NCBI GenBank assembly: GCA_016214035.1
Contig: JACRPF010000009.1
Coordinates: 62,001 to 126,000, forward strand
Length of the DNA stretch: 64,000 nucleotides
Source: Spirochaetota bacterium
GTDB lineage: Bacteria; Spirochaetota; Brachyspiria; Brachyspirales; JACRPF01
Direction of reading: 5' to 3'
Every line of letters starts with the position of its first letter. The stretch's first letter is position 1. Shown piece after piece: positions 605-9,907 of the stretch. The translations under genes were made by a program, and so were the position numbers. The notes beneath the pieces were generated by a model. It saw nothing but the letters and a program-made list of their open reading frames with translations. It was not told the DNA's origin and ran no database searches.

Positions 605-1984
605 TTATTTCGACGCATACCGCTGATGCGCGATCAGTGCAAGACCCTTCGAAATCGACGTGAACAGCTCAGCGCTTTTCATCCTGTCTCTGCCGAAACG
701 CCGTTCCAGTATCTGCTGCACCAACGGAATCTGCGTACTTCCGCCGACGGGGATGACCATGTCGATGTCGGCGGTGGTGAGTCCGGCGCGTTTGATTACC
801 TCGTCGATGAGTGACGCCACGTTTTCCGCATGGCCGGCGATGGCTGTCTCAAATTCTGTCCGGTGTATGGTGCTCGCGATTCCCGACGGGCCGAAGCTCA
901 CGGCCATCGGTGCCGCCGTTTTTGACGACAGCGCTATCTTCGTCTCTTCACAGGCGCGCATGAACGCGTAACCGTAATTACCCTTAACGAGATGATAGAG
1001 CGCAGCACCTGCGTTCGGGTTGTCGCATGTCTGGCGTATTTCCATGAAAAGCGTTTCGTAATGCGCCTGCGAGAGTTCCATGATGCCGTCGAGTGTGAGA
1101 AGTTTGTCGTAGATGACGGCGGGCATGTCGCGGAGCACGCCGCCGATGGACCGTGTATGCGCGCCCCTGCCGAGAAGCGGATGAAGGAGTTTCTGTATCT
1201 CGCGGTCGAAATCGTCACCGCCGAGGAGAAGCCCCGCGTTCGCGCGGACAACGGCTTCATGATGTTCGATGCCCACCACCGAACAGTCGAGCGTTCCGCC
1301 GCCGAAGTCGAAGACGAGTGCCGTACCGTCGGCAAGCGTCCGTGCCCGTTCCACCGAGGCGGCAACGGGTTCGAGCGCAAAACTCACCTCGCGGAATCCC
1401 GCTTCCTTTGCCGCGGTGGTTATCTGCATCTCATAGTGGCGTTTCATCGCCGGCTCCTGCTCAACGGGCACCGGCATGCCCACGACAATGGCATCGCAGC
1501 GTGAGCCGGTCTGTGCACGTACGGCGTCCATGATGGCCCGGAAGAACTGCTCCAGAAGACGGAAGAGCGGAAGATTGTCGTTGAACACCTGCATACGCCG
1601 TATCGTCGGATATCTGAGCGCGGTCTTGAGCGATTTGAAAAAACGTCCCTTGAGCGCAGTATCTTCAAGCGTGTGTATGGGTACCGAGACGGTGGTGGAA
1701 TCCTCTTTCATGCCGAGTTGCGCGGCCTTTGTCTCCGATAATACGACATTGATATCGATTGAACGGTCGAGGTCCCTGCGGACGAATTTCGACTGATGTC
1801 CGGTATGGTCGGAAAGGTAGGTGGCGATGGCATCCATGCCGACAAAATATTTTCCGCGTCTGCGCCGGTAGAGACATGTCGGAAAGAACGACTCGCCCTT
1901 GAACTGAATGTCGACGGCAGTGCCGTCCTTGACGATGGCCGCTGCGGAATTACTGGTGCCGAAATCGCAACCGATGCTGATCAT
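605..1984 (-). CDS. Hsp70-family protein, YegD-like
   Basis: The 459-residue protein opens with MISIGCDFGTSNSAAAIVKDG, the phosphate-1 loop of the actin/Hsp70 ATPase fold. It also has VFDFGGGTLDCSVVG (phosphate-2), GGDDFDREI and VIPVGGSTQIPLVQ (adenosine-binding). Its length matches E. coli YegD (about 450 residues) and is too short for a full DnaK substrate-binding domain, so it is probably a chaperone-like ATPase of unknown client. The start at 1984 was chosen because the FGTSN motif must be N-terminal, because GGGAG precedes that ATG, and because a TTGACT-N16-TATACT promoter lies 60-90 bp upstream. The open frame continues upstream to 2527, but only antisense to the AraC gene. Confidence 0.85.
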   Translation of the reverse strand: MISIGCDFGTSNSAAAIVKDGTAVDIQFKGESFFPTCLYRRRRGKYFVGMDAIATYLSDHTGHQSKFVRRDLDRSIDINVVLSETKAAQLGMKEDSTTVSVPIHTLEDTALKGRFFKSLKTALRYPTIRRMQVFNDNLPLFRLLEQFFRAIMDAVRAQTGSRCDAIVVGMPVPVEQEPAMKRHYEMQITTAAKEAGFREVSFALEPVAASVERARTLADGTALVFDFGGGTLDCSVVGIEHHEAVVRANAGLLLGGDDFDREIQKLLHPLLGRGAHTRSIGGVLRDMPAVIYDKLLTLDGIMELSQAHYETLFMEIRQTCDNPNAGAALYHLVKGNYGYAFMRACEETKIALSSKTAAPMAVSFGPSGIASTIHRTEFETAIAGHAENVASLIDEVIKRAGLTTADIDMVIPVGGSTQIPLVQQILERRFGRDRMKSAELFTSISKGLALIAHQRYASK

Positions 1985-2046
1985 ACGATATCTCCCGACG
2001 ATGGTAATGTGCAGATTTGTCGATGGCAGTTGAACAAGGGAGCGAC

Positions 2047-2074
2047 AGTATATATCTACGGGCGATAGAGTCAA
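2047..2074 (-). promoter_or_regulatory. Sigma70-like promoter of the YegD-like gene
   Basis: On the minus strand TTGACT (2074-2069), a 16-bp spacer and TATACT (2052-2047) are seen. The predicted transcript starts near 2040, giving a leader of about 56 nt. It is back to back with the AraC promoter at 2094-2122. Confidence 0.6.
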
Positions 2075-2093
2075 TTTCAAAAGATTCATCTGA

Positions 2094-2122
2094 TGGAAAA
2101 AATATCCGGCATCGGATATACT
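2094..2122 (+). promoter_or_regulatory. Sigma70-like promoter of AraC gene, leaderless arrangement
   Basis: TGGAAA (2094-2099), a 17-bp spacer and TATACT (2117-2122) are seen. The ATG at 2129 lies 6 nt after the -10 box, about where transcription should begin, so the mRNA would have little or no leader. No Shine-Dalgarno sequence precedes either possible ATG. Confidence 0.5.
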
Positions 2123-2128
2123 GACGGT

Positions 2129-2878
2129 ATGCAGCGCATCATAACGGTAAACCGCACGCATTCGCCCGGAAGGGAGAACCCGCGCCACGCGCATGATATG
2201 TGGGAGATCGTCCTCTATACCGGCGGCAGCGGCAGTGTAATGCTTCCGAATCGCGAACAGCCGCTCATCCCGGGCGACATCTACTGTTTCCCGCCGGGGA
2301 ACGCACATGGCGAACGATCCGAAAAGGGTTACGACAGCATGTGGATAATGTTCGACGGATTCGCCATCGCGTCGCAGACGGTGCTCACCGCGCACGATCC
2401 GGTGCACGCACCCTTCCGCATCCTCTGCGATCTGCTCTATCACGAATTCCGTCTGCACGCGGAAAGCGATGCGTGCAAGAATATTCTCTCGCTCATCATC
2501 GGTTATATCACGCGCTTCTCGTCGCATACCGAGGATGACGCGCGTGTTGAGGCTGTGAAATCAACGCTCATCGCGAACATCGGCAATCCGGATTTCAGAT
2601 TGCGCAAGGCGCTCGCGTCGTTCGGCTGCTCAACGTCGTTCATGCATGCGCATTTCAAAAAGGTGACGGGCGTTTCGCCGCTCCAGTATCTCATCGATCT
2701 GCGCATACGCGACAGCAAGGCGATGCTTTCGATACCGAAGCTTACGCTCCGGACCGTGGCGCGGCAGGTTGGTTTCCGCGATCCGTATCATTTCTCGCGG
2801 GCGTTCAAACAGAAGACCGGCATGTCGCCGGCGGATTTCCGTTCCGGGGCATCATCGCAGAGACGGAAAGCAACATGA
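2129..2878 (+). CDS. AraC-family transcriptional regulator
   Basis: The N-terminal part (HAHDMWEIVLYTGGSG, then PGDIYCFPPGNAHGE) is a cupin-type sugar-sensing domain. The C-terminal 100 residues carry the double helix-turn-helix, with TVARQVGFRDPYHFSRAFKQKTGMSP as the second HTH. The 249-residue length is normal for short AraC regulators. An in-frame ATG at 2093 would overlap the predicted -35 box, so 2129 is preferred. Its stop overlaps the start of the following epimerase-like gene by four bases (ATGA), so the two are probably translated together and the regulator likely senses that enzyme's sugar or pathway. The effector is unknown. Confidence 0.88.
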   Translation: MQRIITVNRTHSPGRENPRHAHDMWEIVLYTGGSGSVMLPNREQPLIPGDIYCFPPGNAHGERSEKGYDSMWIMFDGFAIASQTVLTAHDPVHAPFRILCDLLYHEFRLHAESDACKNILSLIIGYITRFSSHTEDDARVEAVKSTLIANIGNPDFRLRKALASFGCSTSFMHAHFKKVTGVSPLQYLIDLRIRDSKAMLSIPKLTLRTVARQVGFRDPYHFSRAFKQKTGMSPADFRSGASSQRRKAT

Positions 2879-3726
2879 ATTTTGGCGCACACTGTTACCT
2901 GTTTACCGATCGATGGTCGGACAAAGAATTGCCGCTGCTTGACCGCGCACGAGCACTCGGCCTTACGATGTTCGAAATTGCCGTCGGTGATGATGTGCAT
3001 TTCGATTATCGCAGAACGGCGGACCGCGCGAAAGCGCTCGGACTTGATCTCATCGTCAGTCCCGGAGGAGTATGGCCGTCAGCATGTGATCTGTCGTCGG
3101 ATAATGCGGATGAACGCAAACTCGGTCTTGCGTGGCATACAAGGCAGATCGATATTGCGGCGGAACTCGGCGCACAGGCATACGCGGGTGCGCTCTACGG
3201 TCATCCGGGTACGGTAAAACGCCGCCGTCCGCCGGATGAAGAATATCACCGAATAGCGGAGGGTCTTCACGCGCTTGCGGAGTACGCCCATCGTGCCGGT
3301 GTTGTACTCGCACTTGAACCGATGAGCCATTTCCGCACGCATCTGGTGAATACTCCCGAGCAGGTGATGCGTCTTATATCGCTTGCCGACCATGCGGGTA
3401 TTTTCGCGCTCCTTGACACCTATCACATGGTTACAGAAATACGGGATTTTGCAGCCGCGATACGCACGCTTGCGCCGAGACTGTATGCGCTCCATGCCTG
3501 TGAGAACGACCGCGGTGTTCCGGGCGGCGGATTGATCCCCTGGCAGACGATATTTCAGACCCTGCATGAAGTCGGCTTTGACGGTTATATAGGTCTCGAA
3601 GCATATAATTCATCGATCGGCGATTTCGCATATGAGCACGGCATGTTCCACGACGTCTGCCCCGACGGAGCGGCGTTCATAACGCAGGGTATGAAATATC
3701 TCCGATCAGTTCAGTTGCAAAAATAA
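2875..3726 (+). CDS. Sugar 3-epimerase / xylose-isomerase-like TIM barrel
   Basis: This 283-residue TIM-barrel protein matches the D-tagatose/D-psicose 3-epimerase type of the AP-endonuclease-2 superfamily. The metal-binding and catalytic stations are visible: LEPMSHFRTHLVNT (catalytic Glu), LLDTYHM (metal Asp), LHACENDRGVPGGG (metal His and the substrate-binding arginine loop) and LEAYN (second catalytic Glu). It probably epimerises a ketose at C3 or isomerises a related sugar. The substrate cannot be told from sequence alone. It is translationally coupled to the AraC gene upstream and followed by an acetyl esterase 45 bp later. Confidence 0.85.
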   Translation: MNFGAHCYLFTDRWSDKELPLLDRARALGLTMFEIAVGDDVHFDYRRTADRAKALGLDLIVSPGGVWPSACDLSSDNADERKLGLAWHTRQIDIAAELGAQAYAGALYGHPGTVKRRRPPDEEYHRIAEGLHALAEYAHRAGVVLALEPMSHFRTHLVNTPEQVMRLISLADHAGIFALLDTYHMVTEIRDFAAAIRTLAPRLYALHACENDRGVPGGGLIPWQTIFQTLHEVGFDGYIGLEAYNSSIGDFAYEHGMFHDVCPDGAAFITQGMKYLRSVQLQK

Positions 3727-3771
3727 CAACAAGGTTTAGTATACCCGCATCAAAAACCTCAAGGAGTCGTT

Positions 3772-4731
3772 ATGCCGCTGATAGACAAACCGCTTCCCGA
3801 ACTGTATAAGTATGAAGGACGCAATCCGAAGCCGAGCGATCACGCTGCATTCTGGGATAAAGCCCTCGCTTCCATGCATGCTATCGATCCGAAGATTGAA
3901 CTCATCCCGGCGGAATTCAAGGCGCCGAATGCCGATTGCTTCCATATGTATTTTACCGGCGACGGCGGCGCGCGCGTCTACGCGAAGCTTCTCAAACCGA
4001 AGAACCCCGCAAAAAAGCATCCGGCCGTTGTGGTGTTTCACGGATACAGCGGCAGTTCCGGCGACTGGAACGGCTATCTTTCATATGTCGGGCAGGGCTT
4101 TACCGTCGCCGCACTCGACTGCCGCGGACAGGGCGGACGGTCTGAGGATGTCGGCGGCATACACGGTACCACACAGAACGGGCATATCATCCGCGGTCTC
4201 AACGACAGCCCGGACAAGCTTCTCTTCAAATCGATCTACCTCGATACCGCACAGCTTGCGCGTATCGTCATGAATATGGATGACGTCGATGAAACGCGCG
4301 TGGGCGCATTCGGCGGATCGCAGGGCGGCGGACTCACGCTCGCCTGCGCGTCGCTTGAACCGCGCATCAAACGCGCCGCACCCACGTTCCCGTTTCTCTG
4401 CGACTACCGCCGCGTCTGGGAAATGGACCAGGCCGCGAACGCCTACGCCGAACTCAAGACCTTTTTCCGTAATTTCGATCCGCGCCATGAACGCGAGGAC
4501 GAGATATTCACCCGGCTCGGCTACATCGACGTGCAGTTTCTCACGCCGCGCATCAAGGGCGAGATACTCATGGGAACCGGTCTTATGGATAATGTGTGCC
4601 CGCCGTCGACACAGTTCGCCGCATACAATAAGATCACATCAAAGAAGAATGTGCTCATCTATCCGGACTTCGGCCATGAAGGGCTTCCAGGATTTCCTGA
4701 TCGCGTATTTGAATTCATGATGGGGCTGTAA
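3772..4731 (+). CDS. Acetyl xylan esterase / cephalosporin-C deacetylase family (CE7)
   Basis: This 319-residue alpha/beta hydrolase has the CE7 signatures: an RGQGG motif after the oxyanion strand, the nucleophile elbow GAFGGSQGGGL, the acid region GLMDNVCPPST and the catalytic histidine in FGHEGLPG. The length is typical of the family. CE7 enzymes remove acetyl groups from xylo-oligosaccharides and other small acetylated sugars. No signal peptide is seen, so it probably acts in the cytoplasm on imported oligosaccharides. AAGGAG sits 6 bp before the ATG. It ends the small AraC-epimerase-esterase operon and is followed by a terminator. Confidence 0.9.
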   Translation: MPLIDKPLPELYKYEGRNPKPSDHAAFWDKALASMHAIDPKIELIPAEFKAPNADCFHMYFTGDGGARVYAKLLKPKNPAKKHPAVVVFHGYSGSSGDWNGYLSYVGQGFTVAALDCRGQGGRSEDVGGIHGTTQNGHIIRGLNDSPDKLLFKSIYLDTAQLARIVMNMDDVDETRVGAFGGSQGGGLTLACASLEPRIKRAAPTFPFLCDYRRVWEMDQAANAYAELKTFFRNFDPRHEREDEIFTRLGYIDVQFLTPRIKGEILMGTGLMDNVCPPSTQFAAYNKITSKKNVLIYPDFGHEGLPGFPDRVFEFMMGL

Positions 4732-4813: not shown

Positions 4814-6877
4814 TTATTTAAACGTCGGCACCACGATCCCTTCAAGTATCACTTTTTGCGCGAGGATGAATACGATGAGCGTCGGTATTGATGTGATCAC
4901 GAGCGCCGCCATTATCATCGGGACGGACGCGTACTGCTGATACTCGTAGAGGAATACCATGAGCGTCCACATTTTCGGGTCCTGACAGGTGAGGAACGCG
5001 TGCATGAACGCGCCGTAGGCGTGCGTGAACGCGTTGAGCGCCGTCACCGCGAGTATGGGCCGCGAGAGCGGCATCGTCACGTTGAAGAAAAGCTGAAGCT
5101 CATTCGCGCCGTCGATGAGTCCGGCTTCGTAGAGTTCCGGCGGCACCGTGTCGAAAAATCCCTTTAATAAGAATATGCTGTAGCCATGCGCGAGGCCGGG
5201 CAGTATGAGCGCCCAGAAACTGTTCATGAGCGTCACGGAGATGTTCACATCATACTGCTTCGCGATATTGGGTATCAGGTATCCCGAGAGGAACACCGTC
5301 ACCGCGAGACCTATCGTCGCTGCAAGCCAGATGGGTATTTTTATTTTCAGACGCTGCAGATTATACACGAGCATGGCGAAGAAGAACACGCAGGCGGCCA
5401 CGGAGAGAATCTGCACCAGCGGGAACGATTTTACGGAGAGGAAATTCGGTATCATGAGCACTTCGCCGGGGAAGGCCATTGTCGCCATCATGAAGAGCAG
5501 GATGTAATGCGACTCCTTCAGCCGGAAACGCGACATCGCATACGCGGCCATGGGGTTCACCGTGAGCGCCGCCGCGATGGACAGGATGATGTAGATAATG
5601 GTCACCATGAGCGAATCACCGTGGAGCGCGATAAACGACAGCCCCTTAAAATAATTGTAGCCGCTGTATGCGCGCCGGATCTCGTTCTTGTGCTTGAGGA
5701 AATAATCATACTGCATCGCCGCGTAGGGTATTGTCACATTGCTGAACGACGCATATGAGGTGCCGTACGCCTTGTTGAGCGTGGCGATGGTGCCGTAACG
5801 GGCTGCAATATACGGCCGGTAACTGTCTTCAACGCGTACCGCGGACAGCGCCGTGCCCGGGCAGTAATTCGTCTTGGCGATGAAAACGCTCCAGGCGCCC
5901 ATCTTTCCGATGTCATACGGCAGCCGCGGACTGAGCGGATAATACGCGTCGCCGCGCGATTTGAGATACGTCCGCCACGACTTCTCCGCTTTTACGGTGT
6001 CGATGCGGATGAAACGCGCGGGAAATGAGCGGAGGAACTTTTCGCGTATCACCGGACCGAGTTTTCCGTCGATGATGTCCTCATGGCGGACCAGCGCGCG
6101 GTTCAGTTTGCCGTTTTTCATCCGCGCATTGGTGTATGAGGCCGGGATGGGTTCGGTGTTCTTGATGAGGAAACCGAACGGCGCGCTGTTGAAGAGCGCC
6201 ACGCGCTCGGGTATCTGTCCGGCGAGAAATTCGATGCCGTCACGGACGAATGCAGAGTTCGTATCCGGGTGACGGTGCGCGTCCTGTGAGAAAAAGCCGA
6301 TTTCACCGGTCTCGCGGTAGGTCTGATTATGCGCGACATTGATCGCCTGCAGATTATTCGTGTATTTTTTCAGAAGCCACGTGCGGTACCGCTCTGACAT
6401 GTTGTACGGAGAACTTGCGTTGCGCAGGAACGCGGGAAATTTGAATTCAACCGGGCACACATTGCTGATGAAGAATGTGAGGTCTGACGCCATACGGCTT
6501 CTCGCGTCCTCGGGGATTGACGTTACCGGCTCGAAGTCCTCGCGCTTCACGTTGAGCGGCGAGAACCAGCCGTCCTTGCCGAACGCCACCGCGATGTCGC
6601 CGAAATTCGCGCCGGTGCGGAAACCGCCCGCGCGGGAATAGGGACCGTCCGACGCGGCATCGAGGATATATTTTTTGAACAGGTGCACGTCATCGTACCA
6701 GTACCGCGGGATGAGGCGGTATTCCACCGCGTCATTGTTGTCCGCCGTGCCGATGGTCAGCATGAGCAGGAACGGGTACACCATCGTGAACGCACCGACG
6801 GTGAGTATGGCGTAGAGTGCTATCAACAGCAGTCGAACCGGTGTTGAACGTCTGCCGACAATGCTTATTAATGGCAT
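4814..6877 (-). CDS. Sugar ABC transporter permease, MalG type, with large extracytoplasmic insert
   Basis: The 687-residue protein is about 400 longer than a usual MalG-type permease (about 280). Residues 16-40 form TM1. Residues about 45-415 are hydrophilic and would face the periplasm. The remaining transmembrane helices follow from about 422, with the ATPase-contacting EAA loop at 584-604 (YEAGLIDGANELQLFFNVTMP). An extra pair of helices at about 484-533 also lies inside the permease core. The insert holds two stretches, near 163-187 and 353-383 (for example RYGTIATLNKAYGTSYASF), resembling the loop of GH42-type hydrolases, but no catalytic pair is evident. The gene starts 12 bp after the binding-protein/permease fusion with an AAAGGAG site, so the two form one operon. 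No ATPase gene is adjacent. Confidence 0.88.
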   Translation of the reverse strand: MPLISIVGRRSTPVRLLLIALYAILTVGAFTMVYPFLLMLTIGTADNNDAVEYRLIPRYWYDDVHLFKKYILDAASDGPYSRAGGFRTGANFGDIAVAFGKDGWFSPLNVKREDFEPVTSIPEDARSRMASDLTFFISNVCPVEFKFPAFLRNASSPYNMSERYRTWLLKKYTNNLQAINVAHNQTYRETGEIGFFSQDAHRHPDTNSAFVRDGIEFLAGQIPERVALFNSAPFGFLIKNTEPIPASYTNARMKNGKLNRALVRHEDIIDGKLGPVIREKFLRSFPARFIRIDTVKAEKSWRTYLKSRGDAYYPLSPRLPYDIGKMGAWSVFIAKTNYCPGTALSAVRVEDSYRPYIAARYGTIATLNKAYGTSYASFSNVTIPYAAMQYDYFLKHKNEIRRAYSGYNYFKGLSFIALHGDSLMVTIIYIILSIAAALTVNPMAAYAMSRFRLKESHYILLFMMATMAFPGEVLMIPNFLSVKSFPLVQILSVAACVFFFAMLVYNLQRLKIKIPIWLAATIGLAVTVFLSGYLIPNIAKQYDVNISVTLMNSFWALILPGLAHGYSIFLLKGFFDTVPPELYEAGLIDGANELQLFFNVTMPLSRPILAVTALNAFTHAYGAFMHAFLTCQDPKMWTLMVFLYEYQQYASVPMIMAALVITSIPTLIVFILAQKVILEGIVVPTFK

Positions 6878-6889
6878 ATCAGTGCTCCT

Positions 6890-9800
6890 TTATTTCCCGC
6901 CGCTGCTGCCGCCGCCGCTCGATTCCTTCTCGACGGAGACGCTGCGGAACTGGAGTTTGTTCATGATGCGAAGCTGGTTGAACGTGAAGCCGATGAGCAT
7001 GGCGCCGATAATCCAGGCCGCCGCCGTGGACACGCCGAACTCGAGGAACATGAACGCGTTAAACCAGATGTAGAGACCCACAGTCATCGTCTTGTCCTCC
7101 GGGCCGCCGCCGGTCATGACGAAGACGTTCTGCGAGGCGTGGAAAGCGCCGACAACCGCGCCCACGAAATTGATGAGTATAAGCGCCTTGAGATTCGGTA
7201 TCATGATGTGCACCACTTTCTTCCAGACGCCCGCGCCGTCGATGTCGGCCGCCTCGTACTGTGCGTCGGGAATGCCTTTGAGCGCCGCGAGGTAGATGAG
7301 ACATCCCGGGCCGGCATGCGCCCAGATTGAGGGGATGACCACCCAGAGCATCGCCATGTTCGGGTCCTGCAGGAATTTCTGTTCCTTGAAATCGAAGCCG
7401 CCGAGGAATACGCGCGTGAATGCGAAGAGTCCGTCCTTCATGAACTCGGGGACGATGGCGAGGAGTATGAGCGCCGAGACGATGCCGCCGATGGCTCCTG
7501 CGAAAAGTTTTTCACCGCGCTCGTTTTCTTTTTTCGACACCTGCATGAAGCAGACTATGGCGATGAGTACGAACGCCGCAAGCACGATGAACTTTACCGC
7601 TATCGCCGCGGGCACCGGCCAGGTGTTGAACCAGAGTATCATCTGATTGATGATGCCCTGTTTCGATGTGTCATACAGAAGCCCTTTCCACAGGAAGAGC
7701 GTTACGATTCCCGTTGTCACCGCGGGGAGATAATACACGGTGCGGTAAATAATCTTTCCCTTCGGTATTTCGGTAAGCATGATTGCAAGCACGATGGGTA
7801 CGAGGAATCCGATGCCGACCGAATAGCCGACATAGAGGAACGTCTGCAGGAAATAACGCCAGAAAGAACCCTGCGAGACCACCTCGATGAAATTCTTCAA
7901 TCCCACATAAGTAGATCCGCCGAGGAGCTTGTAATCCTGAAACGCCATAGCCGTGCCGCGGACAAGCGGATAATACGCCCAGACGGCGATGGTGAAGAGC
8001 GCAGGAATGAGGAAGAGATACGCATAAATGCGTCTGCGTCCGGGATGTCCGCCCACGCCGAAACCCTCATTATTCTTGAACTTCGCCTCGGCGCGCATGG
8101 CGAACTTTACGATGAAAAAACCCGCCACGACGATGCCGCTGAGCAGAATGACGAACAGCACCCAGCCGATCATCGAACGTTTTTTGATCTCTTCCTTCGG
8201 CATCTCGCCGAGCACCGTGGTGTTCACCCGCTCGACGATACCGCGCATCACGTTCGTGGGGTCCTGGGCATATTGTCCGGTGACCATGTCGATGGGGTCG
8301 TTGATCATGATATCGATGGGGATGCGGAGATCCTTTGTCATCACCTGCGTGAAGCCTTTGCAGCGCGGTTCACCCTTGCCGTAGCGGTCTATCCTGTCCC
8401 ACATGGCGAGGCGTTCTTCGGGGATGCGCGAGAGCACGTCGGCATATCCCGCCGATTTAAGAAGCGTGGGTCGCACGAGTTCAGCAAGACCCAGTTCGTA
8501 ATACACGCTCATACGTATGTGTTCCGCCTCGGGACCGGTAGAGAATTCGATATATTTCCACGCTGCGTCCTGTATCGCCTTTTTGCTGCGGCGTCCGGGT
8601 TTATCCTCTTCCGCTATTGCTGCGTTCACTCCGGCAAAATGTCCCATGATGAACACGGCGGTCTGTTCCTCTTTGGTTATCGGCGGGAGCAGCGTGTAGG
8701 TGTATTCGGTGGGGTCTTCATTGATGTTCCCCATGCCGCCTTCCTGCATCGTGATGATGCGTATGCCGATGAATTTCTGTTTTATCTCCGATGATAATCC
8801 CGCATCGACGACGCCTTTGTAGATGCGTTTCTGCACGGCCTTGTCGGTGAGGTCGAACGTATCGCCGGTGACGGGGTCAACCGCTTTCTTCGCGCGTATC
8901 ATCTCCGCCGTGATGTCGAACTCATGTCCCTTGTTGCGTATCCACGGCTGCTGCAGCAGTTTCCGGTAGAAGTTGAGTGCGCGTATCGCCTTGGGTCTGT
9001 CGGTGACGAGGCGCCACTTCGCGTCGTTGACCGTGTAATTGATCGGGAAACCGAGTGCGGTGAGTTTCTTCCGGTTCGCTTCCATCTCAGCGTGGTTTTC
9101 CGCCTCGTCGCTTACCTCTATGTTGAAGTCGCGGAAGTTCACCGGCGGATCGGGCACCTCAATAAGCTTGCCGTCCTTCTCGAAATGCGGGAGCACCACA
9201 TCGCCGCCCGCCGACCACACCCACTGCAGGAACTGCCAGCCGCTCGATGTGCGCCGGCTCAGGTCTATATAGAATCCGTAGGTGAACGGATCGTCTGGCT
9301 TGCCGCCCTCCTTGGTGGGGTCATAGGTCATCTTCCGGGCGAACTCATAGAGTTCATCCCAGTCTTTCGGCAATCGTCCGCCGAGGCCTGCGTTGGCGAA
9401 TGTGGGATTGTGACAGCCGAGCATCATATTATAGTAGAGCGTGGGCACCACGTAGATGTTGCTCGCATCCTGACAGAATTTCCAGAGCTTCGACGGAGCA
9501 TAGATGCCGCGGTACGGCTGATTGTATTCCTTCTGATACTGTTTAAGATAATCGTTGAGCGGTATGAGGAATTTCTGGTCGCGATAATCGGCGACATGCC
9601 GGGTGAGTAGCCAGAATACGTCCGGTGCCACGCCGCCGATGACGGCGAAAAAGTCCGTACCTTCGCTTCCCGGTGCTTCAACCGCAAGCGGGACCACCGC
9701 GCGCACCTTGTATTTCGGATATCGTTTAATGAACGCTTCAAATATCTTCCGCCGGGCTATCCATGTGGGATCGGAGGTGAACACGCTCGGTATGGATTTG

Positions 9801-9907
9801 AGCCTGAGTTCCACCTCGTCTTCTTTGATGGCGGATTCATCGACAGCGGCAGAGAGCATCGTTACGGTAACAAGCAGGGACAGGATTCGTATCAGGAATT
9901 GTTTCAT
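6890..9907 (-). CDS. Fused solute-binding protein and MalF-type permease of a sugar ABC importer
   Basis: This 1005-residue protein joins two normally separate importer parts. Residues 1-21 are a signal peptide. About 30-560 resemble an extracellular sugar-binding protein of the MalE class (KRYPKYKVRA, GGVAPDVFWL, GLGGRLPKDWDELYEFARKM). A helix at 579-601 anchors it. Residues about 625-985 are a MalF-type permease with the EAA loop at 882-906 (QYEAADIDGAGVWKKVVHIM). Extra hydrophobic helices at about 768-822 enlarge the permease. The C-terminus is a glycine/serine tail (SSGGGSSGGK). Fusing receptor to channel tethers one binding domain to each transporter. A GAGGTG site precedes the ATG. The sugar is unknown. 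Confidence 0.9.
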   Translation of the reverse strand: MKQFLIRILSLLVTVTMLSAAVDESAIKEDEVELRLKSIPSVFTSDPTWIARRKIFEAFIKRYPKYKVRAVVPLAVEAPGSEGTDFFAVIGGVAPDVFWLLTRHVADYRDQKFLIPLNDYLKQYQKEYNQPYRGIYAPSKLWKFCQDASNIYVVPTLYYNMMLGCHNPTFANAGLGGRLPKDWDELYEFARKMTYDPTKEGGKPDDPFTYGFYIDLSRRTSSGWQFLQWVWSAGGDVVLPHFEKDGKLIEVPDPPVNFRDFNIEVSDEAENHAEMEANRKKLTALGFPINYTVNDAKWRLVTDRPKAIRALNFYRKLLQQPWIRNKGHEFDITAEMIRAKKAVDPVTGDTFDLTDKAVQKRIYKGVVDAGLSSEIKQKFIGIRIITMQEGGMGNINEDPTEYTYTLLPPITKEEQTAVFIMGHFAGVNAAIAEEDKPGRRSKKAIQDAAWKYIEFSTGPEAEHIRMSVYYELGLAELVRPTLLKSAGYADVLSRIPEERLAMWDRIDRYGKGEPRCKGFTQVMTKDLRIPIDIMINDPIDMVTGQYAQDPTNVMRGIVERVNTTVLGEMPKEEIKKRSMIGWVLFVILLSGIVVAGFFIVKFAMRAEAKFKNNEGFGVGGHPGRRRIYAYLFLIPALFTIAVWAYYPLVRGTAMAFQDYKLLGGSTYVGLKNFIEVVSQGSFWRYFLQTFLYVGYSVGIGFLVPIVLAIMLTEIPKGKIIYRTVYYLPAVTTGIVTLFLWKGLLYDTSKQGIINQMILWFNTWPVPAAIAVKFIVLAAFVLIAIVCFMQVSKKENERGEKLFAGAIGGIVSALILLAIVPEFMKDGLFAFTRVFLGGFDFKEQKFLQDPNMAMLWVVIPSIWAHAGPGCLIYLAALKGIPDAQYEAADIDGAGVWKKVVHIMIPNLKALILINFVGAVVGAFHASQNVFVMTGGGPEDKTMTVGLYIWFNAFMFLEFGVSTAAAWIIGAMLIGFTFNQLRIMNKLQFRSVSVEKESSGGGSSGGK

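Follow-up and report, generated by a model that had tools for sequence, protein, structure and literature searches.

A sugar permease with a large extracytoplasmic domain that carries hydrolase-like motifs raises the question of what such a domain does on one half of an ABC importer, and in particular whether it acts on the sugar, on the receptor or on neither. The gene lies in the window (the whole stretch of DNA that was analysed, 64,000 nucleotides), where an earlier note, made from the sequence alone, had placed a MalG-type permease at positions 4814–6877 and gave no strand. The open reading frame is present on the minus strand, as are all features of the two transporter genes given below, and encodes 687 residues. 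PF00528 matches residues 461–677 (E 4e-9, 36.8 bits against a cutoff of 26.4 in Pfam), and NCBIfam models of the MalG/UgpE type also match. The AlphaFold2 model of the whole protein, made with an 80-sequence alignment, has a pLDDT of 88.2 and a pTM of 0.83; its top Foldseek match is E. coli MalG (4ki0_G, E 1.8e-5), and only permeases appear among the matches listed. TM1 spans residues 12–42 (6752–6844), by hydropathy and as an AlphaFold2 helix. The permease core, residues 409–687 (4817–5653), starts at an NY motif before TM2, and N408 is invariant across the 80 aligned relatives. Residues 583–596 (YEAGLIDGANELQL, 5090–5131) stand out by conservation, with E584, D589, G590 and E593 invariant or nearly so in the same relatives, and we take them to be the EAA-type loop that couples the permease to its ATPase. 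PF00528, the fold and the conservation of this loop identify the protein as a MalG-type ABC permease of the CUT1 family.

The insert of about 370 residues that had been reported after TM1 measures ~366–370 residues, since the next hydrophobic helix begins at about 412–420. It occupies residues 46–411 (5645–6742) between TM1 and TM2, and its length in the 80 aligned proteins ranges from 298 to 415 residues, with a median of 365. The earlier note had suggested a structure prediction and a structural search for this region, and asked whether it might be unstructured or a known permease domain such as the MalF P2 loop. Modelled alone with AlphaFold2, the insert comes out as folded rather than disordered (pLDDT 90.9, pTM 0.90) and is predicted to be a helical array, a succession of strand, helix A, helix B, loop and helix C elements with short strands at residues 146–148, 226–228, 290–292 and 344–346. 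Foldseek finds no whole-domain match for the model in the PDB (best E 1.1) and no binding-protein fold, and one unit of the array resembles a piece of GH14 and GH42 enzymes. The insert has no match in the BFVD viral structure library, and a scan of viral contigs with the 687-residue protein gave no relative. Two identities were rejected at this stage. The insert is not a MalF P2 loop, as neither its profile nor its model matches any MalF chain in the PDB, and it is not an SBP_bac domain, as it is nearly all helical and has no match to solute-binding proteins, the solute-binding domain being on the partner protein.

Both motif stretches quoted in the earlier note are present, at residues 164–187 (YRTWLLKKYTNNLQAINVAHNQTY) and 353–375 (YRPYIAARYGTIATLNKAYGTSY), and they represent two of the roughly five repeats in an array that only a comparison of relatives reveals. 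The repeat unit is ~70–75 residues long and consists of a short strand, helix A, helix B with a loop of the form LN..yGT.y.sf..I..P, and helix C; the consensus core reads LYRKFLEKKYGDIEALNRAYGTDYASFDEVPLPEE. Across the 80 aligned proteins, units begin near residues 66, 145, 220, 285 and 355. The unit profile, trained solely on relatives outside the window's family (the window and loci L034, L036 and L037 were left out), counts five units in 41 of 76 relatives and four in 19. With this profile the window's two stretches reach 23.7 and 52.2 bits, whereas the best of 2000 shuffled inserts reaches 6.3 bits, so that the resemblance to a loop of GH42 enzymes claimed for them is above chance. The window's insert contains two clear units and one degenerate unit. 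The first quoted stretch belongs to a clear unit at the second array position (motif residues ~158–189, 6311–6406), and the second to a clear unit at the fifth position (residues 343–387, 5717–5851), the higher-scoring of the two. The degenerate unit, at the fourth position (helix residues 294–308, 5954–5998), scores only 1.8 bits, and its AlphaFold2 strand at 290–292 and helix at 294–308 are in register with the relatives' unit at ~285. At the remaining positions the sequence is degenerate and the predicted structure is retained. As the aligned sequences show, the GH42-like motif is a repeat unit of an array of about five.

The unit has counterparts inside glycoside hydrolase barrels. The Pfam GH42 model matches residues 348–388 with E 5e-4, at 19.9 bits for the whole protein against a cutoff of 21 and at 22.4 bits for the insert alone; the match covers only profile positions 149–194 of 376. 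Among related inserts, 62 of 79 match PF02449 at E ≤ 0.01, the best at 2.4e-21, and annotation pipelines may on this account mislabel such permeases as beta-galactosidases. The insert-family profile matches 1kwg (E 2.2e-6) and 3voc (E 5.9e-6) at the window's fifth unit, followed by an agarase and a GH167 enzyme. In structure, Foldseek superposes the GH14 beta-amylase 1ven on one unit over 59 columns at 1.9 Å (probability 0.99) and the GH42 beta-galactosidase 4oif over 43 columns at 1.7 Å. The sequence profile and the structure search, independent of each other, both point to a unit of a GH barrel.

The enzymes encoded in the same genome show which part of the barrel is shared. A search of that genome with the unit profile returned two permeases and ~35 further matches in other open reading frames. 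The six of these that we inspected are all of the GH42/GH35 type and hold one unit each, and in every one an N-E pair directly precedes the unit, where the acid/base of such enzymes is expected. An NE pair lies upstream of 15 of 313 permease units, incidentally in the cases inspected, and of none of the window's own units, in line with the earlier remark that catalytic residues are not evident. We further take the GH42 nucleophile region to fall outside the part matched by the insert. No complete (β/α)8 barrel is present in the AlphaFold2 model, and no GH structure matches more than one unit. The unit thus corresponds to the segment right behind the barrel's acid/base strand, and neither the barrel nor the catalytic residue comes with it. 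The identification of the insert as a GH42 beta-galactosidase was rejected on these grounds, with about 45 of 376 profile positions matched, no barrel and no acid/base Glu. For the same reasons the suggestion of a sugar-processing module fails; what stands of the proposed GH-like module is a folded domain on the outer side of the membrane that resembles a piece of GH42, and what falls is the hydrolase. A glycoside hydrolase in degenerate or cryptic form, trimming the sugar as it comes in, would account for the frequent PF02449 matches, but with so small a part of the profile matched, no GH match beyond one unit and an acid/base motif that is missing from the window's units, we regard it as very improbable.

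A sugar-binding role would be served by the same homology. The insert, which we call the arm, could be a second carbohydrate-binding surface on which the repeats keep oligosaccharides or glycan chains close to the receptor; by sequence and by structure, its units are homologues of a part of carbohydrate-active enzymes, and the transporter family is located among glycosidase genes. Against this, in the enzymes the shared unit is a neighbour of the active site and contains neither catalytic residue, and the arm matches no family of carbohydrate-binding modules. Moreover, the conserved positions of the unit (the L of fL, the N of LN, GT and P) look structural. We consider a carbohydrate-binding surface unlikely. 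As to origin, capture of a GH-barrel unit by a sugar permease, followed by an approximately five-fold tandem amplification into a new repeat fold, would be the simplest account of the homology, although the reverse direction, from permease arm unit to enzyme barrel, is possible.

The gene next to malG offers a different clue. Directly upstream, across a gap of 12 nt, lies a 1005-residue fusion of a solute-binding protein with a MalF-type permease, SBP-MalF (6890–9907), with PF01547 at residues 54–234, PF00528 at 818–972 and NCBIfam matches of the MalF/UgpA type. The solute-binding domain takes up residues ~25–560 (8228–9835; PF01547/PF13416, with TM segments at 3–23 and 576–606) and is of the SBP_bac_1 type. 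The permease part spans residues ~576–1000 (6908–8182), as delimited by PF00528, the NCBIfam MalF/UgpA match and TM segments, and shows no match to a P2-like domain in Pfam. The locus is a two-gene importer of the CUT1 (maltose) type with the receptor covalently fused to MalF.

The pairing with a receptor-fused partner, as the earlier note had it, is close to strict. In 17 genomes that were searched with the two proteins, 38 of 39 insert-bearing MalG genes have an SBP-MalF gene directly upstream on the same strand; these genomes were picked for having the insert, a choice that in part builds in the result for the MalG-to-MalF direction. Conversely, an insert-bearing MalG gene lies directly downstream of 38 of 39 SBP-MalF genes in the same genomes. 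Both exceptions sit at contig ends. The intergenic gap is mostly 2–60 nt across relatives, and at one locus, in a Candidatus Hydrogenedentota MAG (L129:3253–7818), solute-binding domain, MalF, arm and MalG form a single open reading frame of 1522 residues. That one frame amounts to an entire importer minus the ATPase. The two permease halves also share a smaller feature. The MalG core has an extra hydrophobic helical hairpin at residues 482–548 (5234–5434; hydropathy and AlphaFold2 helices at 487–509 and 516–541) that is found in 21 of 67 relatives, and the MalF of the window's pair has one as well (residues ~786–853, ~7349–7552); in each protein it lies between two TM helices of the core. Among 67 pairs the hairpin occurs in both proteins in 13, in MalG only in 8, in MalF only in 15 and in neither in 31; the idea of a paired feature was dropped, as co-occurrence is not strict.

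Divergence was compared domain by domain across 51 non-redundant loci. The arm and the solute-binding domain average 24% and 31% identity, the MalG and MalF cores 62% and 53%. With both permease cores controlled for, distances of the arm correlate with those of the solute-binding domain with a partial r of 0.60 (falling to 0.56 when cubic terms are added and to 0.54 when only distant pairs are kept), and label permutation gives p ~0.001–0.002. The arm correlates with its own MalG core with a partial r of only 0.18, or 0.16 with cubic terms. Part of the correlation between arm and receptor may come from a shared rate, composition or envelope environment of fast-evolving extracytoplasmic domains, and it is supporting evidence short of proof.

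Because of the strict pairing and the divergence that tracks the receptor, we judge receptor docking to be the most likely role, and give about an even chance to the arm being a scaffold that docks the tethered receptor over the pore. The MalG arm would contact the receptor fused to MalF and position it above the translocation pore, and would keep it oriented, or restrict its reach, between loading and delivery. It may thereby fill the role that the unrelated MalF P2 loop has towards free MalE in E. coli. The pairing also fits a role independent of the receptor, such as anchoring in the cell envelope. An arm that acts as a spacer, or as an anchor to peptidoglycan, an S-layer or an outer-membrane partner, would agree with the common use of extended repeat arrays as spacers and with the occurrence of the family mostly in PVC-type phyla and Armatimonadota, which have distinctive envelopes. 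However, divergence of the arm follows the solute-binding domain and not lineage-wide components, the number of repeats is fairly constant, and the arm matches no peptidoglycan-binding family, all of which make this role distinctly unlikely in our estimation.

The distribution of the family bears on whether the arm has a function of its own. When GTDB genomes were scanned with the insert plus its flanks, relatives turned up at 416 loci; the best 80 of these were aligned, and nearly all are full-length across the insert. They come from Armatimonadota, Planctomycetota, Lentisphaerota/Victivallales, Kiritimatiellota, Verrucomicrobiota, Firestonebacteria, Hydrogenedentota and others. The family is found mainly in Armatimonadota and PVC-type phyla, with ~12 copies in one Phycisphaeraceae genome. 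In the window's own phylum it occurs in 2 of 393 genomes, both within the window's family. The window's genome holds a second full-length copy that is 63% identical (L034), and a sister genome (G001) holds one copy at 63% identity (L036) and a divergent one (L037) that the GH42 Pfam model matches three times. A quick tree, whose long branches fall short of proving transfer, places the window's clade with sequences from Phycisphaeraceae and Fimbriimonadaceae, and L037 among sequences from Lentisphaerota, Verrucomicrobiota and Kiritimatiellota, which makes separate acquisitions of the two likely. Both genomes also encode an open reading frame of ~790 residues that fuses complete MalF- and MalG-type permeases (L035:6138–8519 and L038; contigs G000:C13 and G001:C88).

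Arm and receptor fusion might then be the baggage of one successful operon, with the arm having little function of its own: the patchy taxonomy and the separate placement of the sister genome's two copies suggest that the operon was transferred as a unit. Yet the arm stays folded and near-constant in length at a mean identity of ~24%, which implies selection, and we hold this explanation to be improbable. Taken as a whole, the proposal that a GH42/GH14-type unit from behind the acid/base strand was captured, amplified about five-fold and now forms the receptor-docking arm of widespread tethered-receptor ABC importers is tentative, and we lean somewhat against its being correct in every part.

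The genomic neighbourhood is consistent with sugar import. Relatives have glycosidase genes of families GH95, GH20, GH2, GH38 and GH28 as neighbours, and one locus (L125) has a MalK-type ATPase gene downstream. No ATPase gene was identified adjoining the window's pair; CUT1 systems commonly share ATPases. Convergent to the transporter, on the plus strand at 2093–4731, lies a cluster encoding an AraC-type regulator, a D-psicose-3-epimerase-like isomerase and a CE7-type acetyl xylan esterase (AXE1), which ends 82 nt from the malG stop codon. It is a possible clue to the substrate, and transport of acetylated xylo-oligosaccharides is only a guess. Farther on, at 605–2527 (minus strand), the window encodes a 640-residue protein whose Hsp70/YegD-like actin-fold part begins at about residue 185, after ~180 N-terminal residues with no Pfam match. 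At L034 and L036, a protein of ~235 residues with a Laminin_G_3/concanavalin-like lectin domain is encoded directly upstream of SBP-MalF (L034:11078–11782, L036:10814–11527); this gene was not seen in the window.

If the proposal is right, these loci represent a large and apparently unnamed class of CUT1 importers, with 416 loci in a single scan and up to 12 copies per genome. One half of the channel in this class carries the receptor on a tether, and the other has an arm built in that tracks the receptor. The phyla that carry the family are known for degradation of complex polysaccharides. The arm would also be a clear example of part of an enzyme barrel being put to new use, as a tandem repeat in proteins that are not enzymes, which bears on the origins of repeat folds. 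The likeness to GH42, GH35 and GH14 enzymes is confined to one unit (~45–65 residues) that matches an arm unit in sequence and fold. In the enzymes it is single and sits in a barrel beside the acid/base Glu, whereas the arm strings about five together, with neither a barrel nor a catalytic Glu.

Among transporters, the closest well-studied system is E. coli MalFGK2-MalE, with which the window's system shares a MalF/MalG pair, a maltose-type receptor, a MalG-like core and a large extracytoplasmic domain on one half. The two differ in that MalE is free and the window's receptor is fused to MalF, and in that the large domain is inserted between TM3 and TM4 of MalF (P2) in E. coli and between TM1 and TM2 of MalG here. 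According to the title of Daus et al. (2009, cited in PMC3328499), MalF P2 interacts with MalE throughout the catalytic cycle. Large MalG inserts also have a precedent. Thermotogales MalG1 and MalG2 have a hydrophilic region of ~500 residues of unknown function between TM1 and TM2, which according to Noll et al. (2008, PMC2246101) occurs in no other MalG; it resembles the arm in its large size and in its described position. The Thermotogales operons encode a free MalE, an enteric-type MalF and a longer insert, in contrast to the SBP-MalF fusion and shorter insert of the window. Seven other loci of the window's phylum (L041, L042, L045, L046, L047, L049 and L050) encode MalG-type proteins with inserts of ~150–330 residues at the same site, in which we found no repeat unit and, among those scanned, no Pfam domain. 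The MalF partners at L046, L049 and L050 are 842–894 residues long; they have a TM_PBP2_N domain, and ahead of the permease domain lie several hundred residues that match nothing in Pfam. The TM1–TM2 site of MalG looks like a hotspot for unrelated inserts. Our literature search, mostly of papers outside subscription journals, found no description of an SBP-MalF fusion or of an inserted MalG in PVC phyla or Armatimonadota, nor any of the repeat arm or of the pairing. What is known, then, is the CUT1 kind of importer and, since 2008, the existence of large TM1–TM2 inserts in MalG of Thermotogales; what appears new, against the papers searched, is the repeat arm and its pairing with a receptor-fused MalF.
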